From Candidatus Poribacteria bacterium (GTDB taxonomy: Bacteria > Poribacteria > WGA-4E > WGA-3G): DNA of 50,458 nucleotides. The notes beneath the pieces are model-generated. The model was not told the DNA's origin. It made no database searches and worked only from the letters and a program-made list of their open reading frames with translations. The DNA lies in contig JAAXHO010000139.1 in the NCBI GenBank assembly GCA_012270795.1, positions 1 to 50,458 on the forward strand, written 5' to 3'. The translations under genes and the position numbers were made by a program. Every line of letters begins with the position of its first letter. Within the stretch, counting starts at the first letter, position 1. Positions 61 to 40,300 of the stretch are shown here, piece after piece.

Positions 61-1656
61 ATGAACAACAACGGAAATGCAGAAAGTAATTTTAGGCTTC
101 TCATTGGTATAGTTATCGCTATTGTTGTCGGTACACTTGTTGGTGGGTTTGCCCCAGGAATTGCTGTTTACACAGAAGTATTAGGTGACATATTCTTGAC
201 CTTACTGAAGATGGTTGTAGTACCCCTTGTGATCTTCTCAATGGTCGTAGGAATTACAAACCTGGGGGATATACGCAACCTCGGTTCCATTGGGGGACGC
301 ACCGTCCTTTATTATATGGCAACGACTGCCATTTCTGTCATCATTGGAATGATTCTCGTTAACATTATCGCACCTGGAAAAGGGATAGAGTTATCAAAAG
401 AGGGTGACCAATATCCCCAACTCTCTTATACGCTGGGTGGGGAGAATAACCTCACGGTAACATTACCCGAGGGCGAAATTGAAAAAGACTATTCCAATAA
501 ATTTATAATCACACTCGTTGATCAAAATTTGGTTGGGGAAATTGAATCTATTGAAGGCAACGAAGTAACTGTAGAAAACTGGCAAGACTTGTCTGGTGAA
601 ATTGATTACATAATAACAGAGAATGGTAAAACGTTGTTGATCGCAAAAAACCAATTTACCGATCTAAAAGTTGACCCATCAGGGACTGGTATTGAAATTG
701 CGCTACCGAAAGTTTCCGAGGTAAAAGGGAAAGAAAACCGCACGATGGGGCAGACCATCATGGAAGTGTTCTTAGGTAACAAGGAAACTGATAAACAGGG
801 CATGATTCCAGAAAACATCTTTATGGCGATGGCGAATATGGATATCTTGCCGCTTATCTTTTTCTCACTCATCATGGGGGCTGCTTTGTCAGTAATTGGG
901 GATGTCGGCAAACCAGCGATTGGCATCTTTAACGCCTTTAATGAAGCCGTAATGAGGATCGTCAACTGGATTATGATCCTTGCACCTGTAGGCATTTTCG
1001 GGTTAATTGCAGGCAGAATAGGGGAAGCAGGAGGTTTCGCTGAATTCCTACCAGAATTAGCAGCCGTCGGTAAATACAGTATGACAGTGATTATAGCACT
1101 TGGATTCCATGGTTTCGTTGTACTACCAACATTGCTATTCCTTTTAGGACGACGGAACCCAGTTGAATATGCAAAAGGAATGGGAACAGCGTTACTTAAT
1201 GCTTTCTCTACTGCAAGTTCAAGTGCCACACTACCGTTAACTATGGAAAATGTTGAGGAACAAAATGGCATCTCTAATCGGACAGCAAGTTTTGTGTTAC
1301 CGTTAGGGGCTACTATTAATATGGATGGTACTGCACTTTACGAGGCAGTTGCTGTAATGTTCATTGCACAAGTGTATGGCATTACAATGGGACCAGCAGA
1401 ACAACTCATCATCGTCCTGACTGCGACACTCGCAGCAATCGGTGCTGCGGGAATACCTGAAGCAGGACTCGTTACGATGGTTATCGTCCTAAAGGCTGTC
1501 GGACTACCCATAGAAGGTGTCGCATTGATACTTTCAATTGACTGGCTACTCGACAGATTCCGTACAACCGTCAACGTTTGGGGCGACAGTGTCGGTGCTG
1601 GTATCATTGAAACTTTTGAGACAAATGATGCCACAGAAGCTCCAGCAGCAACTTAG
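61..1656 (+). CDS. Dicarboxylate/amino acid:cation symporter (DAACS, SLC1-like) with large TM3-TM4 insertion
   Basis: Inner-membrane symporter predicted to take up acidic amino acids or C4-dicarboxylates with Na+ or H+. Seen: the serine-rich HP1 hairpin (STASSSATLP, about residues 382-392), the TM7 motif NMDGT (about 420-424), the HP2 region AAIGAAGIPEAG, and TM8 with DRFRTTVN (D498, R501, N505). In the family the TM8 arginine reads the substrate side-chain carboxylate, so aspartate or glutamate is the best guess. The protein has 531 residues against about 420 for GltP/GltPh; the excess lies between TM3 (ends near residue 107) and TM4 (begins near 248) as a polar, beta-prone segment of about 140 residues. 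The start ATG follows AAAGGAAA at a normal distance. It stands alone; a palindromic repeat follows. The family is certain, the exact substrate is not. Confidence 0.93.
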   Translation: MNNNGNAESNFRLLIGIVIAIVVGTLVGGFAPGIAVYTEVLGDIFLTLLKMVVVPLVIFSMVVGITNLGDIRNLGSIGGRTVLYYMATTAISVIIGMILVNIIAPGKGIELSKEGDQYPQLSYTLGGENNLTVTLPEGEIEKDYSNKFIITLVDQNLVGEIESIEGNEVTVENWQDLSGEIDYIITENGKTLLIAKNQFTDLKVDPSGTGIEIALPKVSEVKGKENRTMGQTIMEVFLGNKETDKQGMIPENIFMAMANMDILPLIFFSLIMGAALSVIGDVGKPAIGIFNAFNEAVMRIVNWIMILAPVGIFGLIAGRIGEAGGFAEFLPELAAVGKYSMTVIIALGFHGFVVLPTLLFLLGRRNPVEYAKGMGTALLNAFSTASSSATLPLTMENVEEQNGISNRTASFVLPLGATINMDGTALYEAVAVMFIAQVYGITMGPAEQLIIVLTATLAAIGAAGIPEAGLVTMVIVLKAVGLPIEGVALILSIDWLLDRFRTTVNVWGDSVGAGIIETFETNDATEAPAAT

Positions 1657-1986: not shown

Positions 1987-4287
1987 ATGAACTCTCAGCA
2001 CAATATGAATTCTCAGAACGATACAACCCCTCAACAATCTGGTATCACTGGTGAAACTTCACTGGCAATCATAAGTGTTGCACTCGCTGCGTTATGGATC
2101 GCATTTGCTTTCTACCACGGTGCAACCACCGAGGTAGATGGCAATCGAATACTCTTATTACATCCACTCGTCCCGATTGCACTCATTGCGATGCTCATCC
2201 GTATTTACAGATGGGTCGGTATCAAATTTATCGTTCATCTTGAAATCATCATGATCGGTCTCTGGATATTTGTCAGAATGCTAGGCGTTTTCATGCCCTT
2301 CATTCTCGGTTTTGGATTTGCATATCTCTTTAGGTTCCTTTGGCGTGCCCTACCATTCAAGAAATATTATCAACGCGCAATCGCAACAGTTCTGATTGTA
2401 GTTGTTTGTGGTGTAGGGTTAACTTATACTGGATTCAGAGTTGGTGACCAAGTTAGGCAAATGGCAAGGGGATTACACAAATTCTATCATGAAAGGTTAC
2501 TCCCTTTAGTTGAAGGGGATGAGTATACGGCTTTTGCGGTTGATCAAACCGGTGACACTGAAACCCTCATTCTCGGCACGAAACACGGAATCTATTTCTT
2601 AAAAAACGAAAAGAAAAGTAAAGATAATCAACCGAAAAATGAACCGGCTCAAATTGGTATCACAAACGGTGAACTGGTCGGAAAACCGATTGATCAGGTT
2701 ACAGTAGGTAATAAATATATCTATGCAATCGCTGAAAATGAAATATATCGTTGTAACAAAGCCGTTATTCCTACGGCTCCAGGCAAGACCAAAAGATCTT
2801 TAATCGCACCTCCCGAAGAATTGGAATGGCGTAAATTAAGGACCACATATTTTGTAAATCATACCCTTCAGACAATCCATGCCCCTGCTTGGGATCCTAA
2901 CTTGATCTATGTTGGAACCCCAAAAGGACTCCACCGAAGTAACGATGCAGGGGATAATTGGTCTGAAGAAGATATTGCCGAAGAGAAAGGTAGGTCTATT
3001 CTTAGCATTGATACTATTGAAATATCTGAAGAACCAAGAGAAGCAATTGATGTGCCTCGTAAAAATAGATTTATTTATGTTGTAAGTGCAGCTTCAACGA
3101 ACGGTCAGGAAAACGAAACAAACTCCGATAAGGAACTTGAAACACCAAGTAATATTTCTACTAAAATCCATTCGCGACAATTGAATACGATTAACAAATG
3201 GGACGATCCTCCTCTTAAAACTAAAGATCGTTCTGGAGTTGATATCCACGCATTATTTATTGCAACAAATAGAGCAACCAAAAAAGATAAACTTAGGCTC
3301 TATGCAGGAACAAAAAATGATATATATGAAAAGATTAATCCAATTGAGGGCACTTTGAATTGGGAACAAATGGAGGAATCAGACCTTTTACCACAGTCAG
3401 TTACTCTATTAGTTGCTACTACCGATGGGCTATATGCCGGCGACAAAAACGTCATCCATTTTCGTCCTGAAGGAGGGACATCTACATGGAAACCTTTTAT
3501 GGTTCCGAACGATGGTTTACTTGAACTGAGAAATCAACCATTTGTACAACAATTTCAGGATTATTTGACAGAAAAAATTCCCGGATGGACTGCTAGTGGT
3601 GGAGCTGCAGTCAGATGGTTGTCCGGATTAGCTGGCACTATTGCTTTTCAGTTCGGTGGATTCCTCGCAACTGTTTCTCTTGCATTCATCGTCTTTGTCT
3701 ATGCAAGCCAAGGGTTTGATAAGTATATCCGTAGTTTCATAAACTTAGTTCCTGAAAAACACCGTGATACAACTATGGCATATTTGCGTGAGATTGATAC
3801 AAATATGCACCAGTTTCTCAAAGGACAGTTCACTGTCATCGTAATCGTCTCTATCATCTCTTGTATCGTCTACCGGCTTGTGGGTGTCCCTTTCGCGCTG
3901 CTTGTCGGCATTTTAGCCGGATTCTGCAATGCTATACCAACATTCGGTCCTTTTATCGGTGGTGGTTTCGCGTATATTGCGATGTTGATGGGACTTGCTG
4001 CAGGTGAATTTAGCAGCACTATCGGCTTTCTCATCCGTTGTATATTCGTGTTAGGGGCAGTACTCGGTATTCAAGCGATTGACAACTCGCTCATCTCTCC
4101 AAAAGTGATGAGCAATGCTGTTGATGTTGACCCGCTCCTCATTATGTTCTCGGTGATTGTCGGTGCTTCCATCCTCGGATTTTGGGGTGTATTACTTGCT
4201 ATTCCGATCATAGTTGTGATAAAATCTATCATCGCTGTTTCTCGTTCTGAATTCAATGAGTCGGAAGAACCAGTTGTACAGGAGTAA
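1987..4287 (+). CDS. AI-2E/PerM-family permease with internal Asp-box beta-propeller-like domain
   Basis: Polytopic inner-membrane protein of the AI-2E transporter family (UPF0118: PerM, YdiK, TqsA). Family members export small molecules or act as Na+/H+ exchangers; the substrate here is unknown. Residues 1-175 hold the first membrane segments; residues about 512-766 hold the conserved C-terminal half (FLKGQF, PFALLVGILAGFCNAIPTFG, GGFAYI, then SPKVM and the final helices). Between them, residues about 176-511 form a soluble insertion with repeated strand-like segments (TLILGTKHGIYFL, LIYVGTPKGLHRS, LLVATTDGLYAG) and a clear Asp-box SNDAGDNW at 318-325. The usual length is about 350 residues; this is 766. 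A second ATG lies six codons downstream (2005) and no good ribosome binding site distinguishes them. The stop is 5 bases from the der start, so the two are probably co-transcribed. Confidence 0.88.
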   Translation: MNSQHNMNSQNDTTPQQSGITGETSLAIISVALAALWIAFAFYHGATTEVDGNRILLLHPLVPIALIAMLIRIYRWVGIKFIVHLEIIMIGLWIFVRMLGVFMPFILGFGFAYLFRFLWRALPFKKYYQRAIATVLIVVVCGVGLTYTGFRVGDQVRQMARGLHKFYHERLLPLVEGDEYTAFAVDQTGDTETLILGTKHGIYFLKNEKKSKDNQPKNEPAQIGITNGELVGKPIDQVTVGNKYIYAIAENEIYRCNKAVIPTAPGKTKRSLIAPPEELEWRKLRTTYFVNHTLQTIHAPAWDPNLIYVGTPKGLHRSNDAGDNWSEEDIAEEKGRSILSIDTIEISEEPREAIDVPRKNRFIYVVSAASTNGQENETNSDKELETPSNISTKIHSRQLNTINKWDDPPLKTKDRSGVDIHALFIATNRATKKDKLRLYAGTKNDIYEKINPIEGTLNWEQMEESDLLPQSVTLLVATTDGLYAGDKNVIHFRPEGGTSTWKPFMVPNDGLLELRNQPFVQQFQDYLTEKIPGWTASGGAAVRWLSGLAGTIAFQFGGFLATVSLAFIVFVYASQGFDKYIRSFINLVPEKHRDTTMAYLREIDTNMHQFLKGQFTVIVIVSIISCIVYRLVGVPFALLVGILAGFCNAIPTFGPFIGGGFAYIAMLMGLAAGEFSSTIGFLIRCIFVLGAVLGIQAIDNSLISPKVMSNAVDVDPLLIMFSVIVGASILGFWGVLLAIPIIVVIKSIIAVSRSEFNESEEPVVQE

Positions 4288-4292
4288 CCCCA

Positions 4293-5639
4293 ATGCAAAA
4301 CCAACTTCCTATTGTTGCTATTGTCGGCAGGCCCAATGTTGGGAAATCCTCAATTTTCAATCGTATCGCTGCAGATGCGCGACTAAATTCAACGCACAGA
4401 AAACAAATCGCAGTTGTCAACGATACCCCCGGTGTCACCCGAGATCGAAACTATGCAACTGTAGGGTGGAATGATAAGCACTTTACGATTGTGGATACCG
4501 GTGGCATTGATGTCGACCCGGATGACCCGCTCATTGACAACGTTCAGTTACAGGTTGACCAAGCATTAGCAGAAGCATCCCTGATTCTGTTTGTAGTTGA
4601 TTCCCGCACTGGCATTATGCCACACGATAACGTCGTAGCAGACAAACTCCGCGCATCAGGAAAACAGATCCTACTTGTCGCAAATAAAGCGGATAGTGTC
4701 AAAATTGAGATGGACACTGCCGAATTCTATGCCCTCGGATTGGAAGCACCGGTCTTGACTTCATGTGTTCAAAACATCGGTATCCATCAACTCCTTGACG
4801 AAGTGGCTGAAATTCTCCCTGATACCGAGGAGACTCAAGAAACGTCCACCGCACCAATCAAAATCGCTATTGTGGGTCGTCCAAATGTTGGTAAATCTTC
4901 ACTCCTCAACAACTTACTCGGTGAAGAGCGGATGATTGTTGACAACCGTCCCGGTACAACGCGGGACGCAATCAATATCCGCTTTGAATATCAGAACATC
5001 CCATTTGAACTTGTTGATACTGCTGGTATGCGAAGAAAATCCGCTATTAAGGATAAGCTGGAATCTGCAACTGTTCAAAGTGCAATCCATAGCATCAGAC
5101 AAAGTGATATTGCAGCGTTAGTGTTAGATGTTACACAGGAAGTGGCACAGCAAGATAAGACAATCGCAAATTTCATTGCACGCCACGGTAAAGCATCTGT
5201 GCTGGTGTTAAATAAATGGGATTTAGTGGAAAAGGACAATACGACCCACGGTGAATTTATACAGCATATAGAAGCACAAGTACCACAAATAGACTATGTC
5301 CCAAAAATATTCGTTTCTGCTATCACTGGACAACGTGTTACTAAAATACTTGATGTGGCACTTGAGGTCTACCGCGAGTATTGCACCCGTATTCCAACTC
5401 CGGCACTCAACGATCTGCTTTTGGAATTGCGTAATGCACACCCACCACCACGTGTTAAAGGGACGCGCCCTGCTCTAAAATATATTACACAGGTAGAGAC
5501 AAAACCACCGACTTTCCTGATTTTCGGGCGTAATACACAAAGGATACGTCCGCCCTATACCGCTTATTTGGTAAACAATATACGAAGCGTCTTTGGGTTT
5601 AACGGAACACCCATCCGTATATTCTATAGAAGAAATTGA
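4293..5639 (+). CDS. der: Ribosome biogenesis GTPase Der (EngA)
   Basis: Double GTPase needed for 50S subunit maturation, cytoplasmic. Two G domains are plain: first P-loop GRPNVGKSS at residues 12-20 with [15 protein letters not shown] and NKAD; second P-loop GRPNVGKSS near 195-203 with [15 protein letters not shown] and NKWD. The C-terminal KH-like domain carries [16 protein letters not shown] and ends in RIFYRRN. The length of 448 residues is typical. The Shine-Dalgarno AGGAG (4280-4284) overlaps the end of the upstream permease gene, which argues for translational coupling. Confidence 0.97.
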
Positions 5640-18606: not shown

Positions 18607-18796
18607 CCTACTTTAGAATACTCTTGTTGGAGGGGTTTCTAACCCCGATTTATGACAATTCGCATCAAAATTCGTTGTTTTTCTGTTTATTGTTATCAAT
18701 CGGGGTTAGAAACCCCTCCAACAAATAATCTGTTTATTGTTATCAATCGGGGTTAGAAACCCCTCCAACAAATAATAGGTAGCAACTTGGGTTATA
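18589..18796. repeat. Family A element with terminal inverted repeats and 47-base internal duplication
   Basis: The ends are inverted: AACCTAAGTTGCAACCTACT on the left and the near-complement AGGTAGCAACTTGGGTTATA on the right. Inside is the core GGAGGGGTTTCTAACCCCGA (from about 18630) and its complement. A 47-base unit beginning CTGTTTATTGTTATCAATCG is repeated in direct tandem at 18683 and 18730, so the right arm exists twice. Confidence 0.8.
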
Positions 18797-40118: not shown

Positions 40119-40300
40119 ATCTCATAAATCGTAGGAGGGGTTTCTAACCCCGATTTACCATACACGCGATGCTGTGAATTTGGACAAAATTGCATTTATG
40201 AAATACGCCTATCTCATAAATCGTAGGAGGGGTTTCTAACCCCGATTTATCATACACGCGATGCTGTGAATTTGGACAAAATTGCATTTATGAAATACGC
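40119..40300. repeat. Two tandem 92-base copies of a family A element
   Basis: Unit 1 is 40119-40210 and unit 2 is 40211-40300; they differ by about one base (TTTACC against TTTATC) plus the last bases. Each unit starts with CTCATAAATC, contains GGAGGGGTTTCTAACCCCGA and ends CATTTATGAAATACG, so its ends are short inverted repeats (TCATAAAT/ATTTATGA). They lie 130 bases ahead of the sigma factor gene. I see no gene in 39989-40429. Confidence 0.88.

Follow-up and report, generated by a model that had tools for sequence, protein, structure and literature searches.

A predicted six-bladed beta-propeller inserted in the AI-2E/PerM-family membrane protein of Candidatus Poribacteria

An open reading frame at positions 1987..4287 of the 50,458-nucleotide stretch of Candidatus Poribacteria DNA analyzed here (the window) encodes a 766-aa AI-2E/PerM-family membrane protein interrupted by a beta-propeller that is predicted to lie in the periplasm. 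All features given below are on the + strand. Candidatus Poribacteria are often sponge-associated bacteria, and AI-2E proteins occur very widely. In the literature searched, no Poribacteria AI-2E protein with a propeller was described, and this domain architecture is apparently new for a known transporter family. The explanation that we favor, and regard as reasonably probable, is that the TM3-TM4 loop of an AI-2E/PerM transporter gained an Asp-box-type propeller, probably once, and that this domain binds a ligand or partner and serves in recognition or gating.

The Pfam model PF01594 (AI-2E_transport) matches the ORF with an E-value of 1.4e-41 and a score of 143.2 bits, above the cut-off of 34.3. 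The match falls into two stretches, of which the stronger covers residues 551-751. The closest solved relative is TqsA, and the two membrane halves occur in order, the N-terminal half corresponding to TqsA residues 10-109 and the C-terminal half to residues 184-325, in agreement with the first-pass annotation, which had described an AI-2E-type permease with both halves intact. The first half of the core, TM1-TM3 (2221..2514), is delimited by the TqsA alignment and by model helices at residues 79-120 and 126-176, with TM3 extending as the long helix 126-176, which exits the membrane in the AF2 model. The second half, comprising an amphipathic helix and TM4-TM8 (3535..4260), is placed by the PF01594 and TqsA matches, and its segment GVPFALLVGILAG..NAIPTFGPFIGG is strongly conserved. 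A further transmembrane hairpin at the N terminus (residues 22-73, 2050..2205) lies outside the PF01594 core; it is recognized from hydropathy, the orthologue alignment and model helices of low to moderate pLDDT (residues 22-45 and 61-73), and is conserved in orthologues. The protein aligns in full to propeller-less orthologues, and the NCBIfam models for CxpE and YtvI score far below cut-off for it.

Alignment to the propeller-less orthologues bounds an insertion of ~338 residues (about 177-515) in the extracytoplasmic TM3-TM4 loop of the AI-2E core. According to the structure model this insertion is a six-bladed Asp-box-type beta-propeller (residues 178-515, 2518..3531), placed by AF2, VIA-align and PDB profile matches, with radially arranged blades of antiparallel strands as assigned by DSSP on the AF2 model. 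The model strands delimit blade 1 (residues 178-229, 2518..2673), blade 2 (230-288, 2674..2850), blade 3 (289-331, 2851..2979), blade 4 (332-414, 2980..3228), blade 5 (415-466, 3229..3384) and blade 6 (467-515, 3385..3531). Several of the blade profiles match one another in HHalign, blade 2 with blade 5 at E 1e-12 and with blade 3 at E 1e-11, and blade 4 weakly; blade 4 also holds a variable loop of low AF2 confidence at about residues 370-390. The Asp-box SNDAGDNW and the repeated G-T-x-x-G-I/L-Y strands that had been noticed between the two halves were both located, the former directly in the sequence of blade 3 (residues 318-325, 2938..2961) and the latter at residues 197, 310 and 441. SNDAGDNW is the sole strict Asp-box (S-x-D-x-G-x-x-W) in the protein, and its position is kept in the majority of the 53 homologues; two boxes are present in the deep-branching L075. 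A Trp closes five of the six blades (residues 281, 325, 405, 459 and 501; blades 2-6) with 92-100% conservation, and these blade-end Trp residues together with the GT/GxY motifs make up the conserved framework of the propeller. Chance does not explain these motifs, given the six blades of the AF2 model, the mutual matches of several blade profiles and the recurrence of the architecture in 61 genomes.

A first AF2 model gave a confident all-beta structure at residues 180-505 and a poor membrane part. Adding propeller-less and distant AI-2E sequences to the alignment improved the membrane part, and the second model reached a mean pLDDT of 80 and a pTM of 0.73, the pLDDT being 90-96 in most blade segments and over 80 in the greater part of the membrane core. 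The first-pass annotation had expected a propeller of 5-8 blades and had named a disordered insertion as the finding that would speak against it; six blades are seen, and disorder is ruled out by both models. In the membrane part the second model is helical where expected for a fold like that of TqsA/YdiK. When the entire model was submitted to Foldseek and VIA, propellers filled the lists, and TqsA was not among the matches listed. A Pfam scan of the isolated insertion returned zero matches, and because Pfam models miss the region it was studied through homologues, profiles and structure prediction. VIA-align gave Z scores of 21.2-21.9 to the six-bladed propellers of LRP6, Pizza6 and nidogen. 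YCF48 was the top Foldseek match with the BT4673 sensor near the top, and the alignment profile searched against the PDB matched the BT4673 sensor propeller (3ott) with an E-value of 6e-11, as well as GH74-type enzymes.

The assignment to the Asp-box propellers thus stands; by sequence the domain is nearer to the BNR/Asp-box propellers of GH74 xyloglucanases, the BT4673 sensor and YCF48 than to sialidases. The six blades of the model do not agree with a ten-bladed sortilin/Vps10 propeller. Profile matches to GH74 and BNR glycosyl hydrolases speak for an extracytoplasmic glycoside hydrolase or sialidase carried on a transporter. The FRIP/YRIP motif, however, is absent from the insertion and the BNR glycosylhydrolase model NF045728 scores 22.6 against a 175-bit cut-off on the window's protein, making a hydrolase very improbable. 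NF045728 matches L075 at 5e-17, below the curated cut-off, and PF02012 (BNR) matches homologues only, also below cut-off, with no match in the window's insertion. No ligand-binding or catalytic residues were identifiable in the propeller.

The orientation of the propeller can be predicted from the charge pattern and the topology of the family. The positively charged loop RALPFKKYYQR precedes TM3, so that the far end of this helix should be outside. PhoA fusion places the N terminus of an AI-2E family member in the cytoplasm, and its first half is predicted to have three helices (PMC7221264). Because that N terminus is cytoplasmic and the two extra N-terminal helices preserve parity, the propeller is most likely on the periplasmic side, in line with the first-pass annotation, which had seen the insertion where the family usually has a short extracytoplasmic region.

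The full architecture is present in 61 of the 84 genomes of the phylum Poribacteria, single-contig chromosomes included, comprising 56 of 58 genomes in the window's family (in two of which contig ends divide the locus), the two f2 genomes and three of nine in family f4. The window's genome itself is in 298 contigs, and a chimera of two genes had been raised as the result that would overturn the annotation. Identical junctions in 61 genomes and conserved neighbors rule out an assembly chimera, and the chance of any such artefact, gene fusion included, is negligible; no evidence supporting one was found. In the window's family nearly all genomes are single-copy, with the propeller protein as the sole AI-2E protein, and the same is true of the window's genome. 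In G062 alone the propeller transporter is encoded twice at full length (G062:C118 and G062:C10). A peptide-pattern scan of genome contigs, limited in reach by the patterns used, gave full-length matches in Poribacteria only. Among the matches listed for two other phyla (14 genomes in the phylum of L090 and 296 in that of L093) none covers the propeller; their AI-2E frames are mostly 340-580 aa, and the longest, of 877 aa, is matched only in its C-terminal half.

The upstream neighbor is an SDF (sodium:dicarboxylate) symporter gene (61..1656, PF00375) and the downstream neighbor is der (EngA), encoding a GTPase (4293..5639), which starts 5 bases past the AI-2E stop codon. In the complete chromosome of G009 the series runs from a large membrane protein, part of which is methyltransferase-like, through aspS, SDF, AI-2E/propeller and der to a hydroxyacid dehydrogenase and then a larB-like gene, the first and last of these being named by eye. 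The window's genome agrees with this order, as another contig ends with aspS and the window opens with SDF. The neighbors are mostly housekeeping genes, and the neighborhood is uninformative on function. The 531-aa SDF symporter has ~110 extra residues (about 125-245) between its two Pfam stretches, which are also found in G009.

Propeller-less orthologues occur in families f3 (453-478 aa), f7 (443 aa), f8 (498 aa) and f10 (frames of 449 and 458 aa). A maximum-likelihood tree built from the membrane cores accounts for the propeller by a single change; the propeller-less f3 is the sister group, and the branch concerned has only moderate support (88/70; 82% of bootstrap trees). A single gain in the history of the clade is thus the simplest reading and probably the correct one, although f3 may instead have lost the propeller. 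Across three close pairs, the membrane part has omega values of 0.055-0.127 and the propeller has values of 0.30-0.43; both are under purifying selection, and the propeller evolves faster. Mean identity among homologues is 50% in the propeller versus 79% in the membrane part, and strong variation in both length and sequence is seen in the surface loops of the propeller. Family f5 (L141-L144) carries a different and shorter insert of about 110 aa in the same loop, which by eye is not propeller-like and in L141 shows an apparent tandem duplication; because of this insert, the TM3-TM4 loop may have taken up inserts on more than one occasion.

TqsA, the solved relative, is an AI-2 exporter. None of the class's 82 genomes yielded LuxS (PF02664), the controls being positive, which weakens an AI-2 exporter reading and makes export of self-made AI-2 unlikely; AI-2 is probably not the substrate of the Poribacteria protein. 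The Na+(Li+)/H+ antiporter group (UPF0118) has the signature residues R292-R293-E296 and D251 (PMC7221264). At the corresponding motifs D and C the window's protein reads IDNSLISPKVM and NAIPTFGP, and in this comparison by eye the signature residues are absent, so that it was not placed in the antiporter group. With both LuxS and the antiport signature absent, neither AI-2 export nor Na+/H+ antiport is supported.

In the model the propeller is flanked by the helix that continues TM3 and by the one preceding TM4. For this reason motion of the propeller would be mechanically coupled to the membrane part, and a bound ligand or partner could affect the transport cycle. We suggest that the propeller binds a glycan, peptide or envelope protein outside the cytoplasm, and that this binding may supply recognition or gate transport. 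The joining of an ECF sigma factor to an Asp-box propeller in the window's genome counts in favor of this reading as well. A more specific form of this proposal, in which a particular ligand allosterically gates the transporter or selects its substrate in a putative transporter-receptor hybrid, is put forward only tentatively. A description of regulation by a ligand-binding propeller was not found for the AI-2E family. The main rival to ligand gating is that the propeller is an envelope scaffold that tethers the transporter to a periplasmic or outer-membrane protein or to peptidoglycan, with no part in sensing or gating. Such a role would also fit the conservation pattern, because conservation in the propeller falls mostly on blade framework and the remainder, including the strongly variable surface loops, evolves quickly; YCF48, the top Foldseek match, is an assembly factor. 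Apart from the direct connection to TM3 and TM4, which suggests mechanical coupling, nothing specific speaks against a scaffold, and we consider it possible if rather unlikely. The protein could also be a pure receptor or sensor with a transport-dead membrane part, as a propeller of the same kind is joined to an ECF sigma factor in the window's genome and the BT4673 sensor propeller (3ott) is part of a two-component system. This is quite improbable given that constraint on the protein is strongest in its membrane part, which retains the family's conserved core, and that no signaling domain is attached to the AI-2E/propeller protein. A putative transporter with an added recognition or gating domain is the preferred reading.

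Several other features were observed in this genome and its relatives. The sigma factor protein (G000:C168, L187:1510-4512) is 1001 aa long and combines Sigma70_r2 and r4 domains, a hydrophobic stretch and Asp-box propeller repeats, apparently tying a sigma factor to an extracytoplasmic propeller; many relatives have frames of ~1000 aa with propeller matches. A module of ~70 aa with the consensus LLFSxxLxFQSDLDNGxISEELRQxFENNGIxLSQNxTVSIEExGSRWLITDxDNKQTYTVRKEADxLNIY is found in-frame inside many unrelated Poribacteria proteins, including AspRS, YibE/F, UPF0182, a histidine kinase, a phosphoesterase and the f4 AI-2E paralogue, and within the AI-2E propeller of f2 and of one f4 genome (loci L192:11148-13154 for AspRS, L147, L024-L026, L167-L186 and L210-L229). 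It has 9 matches in the window's genome and 40 in G036, and is absent from the window. AspRS shows a clean empty site in several lineages that lack the module, query residues 5-88 being followed directly by 164-667. In the hosts scanned the module is not covered by any Pfam family, and no significant match to it was found in the PDB. It is possibly a proliferating protein-coding element, presumably resembling the Rickettsia in-frame palindromic elements in behavior, and, being possibly more novel than the propeller transporter, deserves its own study. The window also contains a dispersed REP- or MITE-like repeat with long inverted arms at 1701-1851, 18627-18768 and 40132-40244, whose core TTGGCGGGGTTTCTAACCCCG has 7 matches where 0 are expected by chance.

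The functions reported for the AI-2E family are disparate, covering AI-2 export, Na+/H+ antiport and drug efflux, with CxpE assigned to chloramphenicol efflux by NCBIfam naming. With a recognition-type external domain on the clade's sole AI-2E protein, the isolated propeller offers a handle for ligand screening, and a ligand would hint at the transporter's substrate or at the signal to which it responds. The TM3-TM4 loop evidently tolerates a whole domain, and the propeller-less orthologues are natural controls.

When compared with the six-bladed YWTD/NHL propellers of LRP6, LDLR, nidogen and SOQ1, the insertion is alike in blade number and arrangement (Z 20-22), whereas identity is only 8-15%; the fold alone is held in common, and no evidence for a common function was found. 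The GTxxGLY motif, the Asp-box and the blade-end Trp are shared with YCF48, the BT4673 hybrid two-component sensor and the GH74 xyloglucanases. In contrast to BNR/Asp-box propellers, the six blades here are part of a transporter and contain one strict Asp-box, and no catalytic motif was found. TqsA, YdiK, YtvI, the UPF0118 antiporter and CxpE have the same membrane core as the Poribacteria protein, in which both halves are present and the C-terminal one is conserved; from these members of the AI-2E/PerM (UPF0118, DUF20) family the Poribacteria protein differs by ~340 extra residues that form a propeller at the TM3-TM4 loop, and further by its additional N-terminal transmembrane hairpin.
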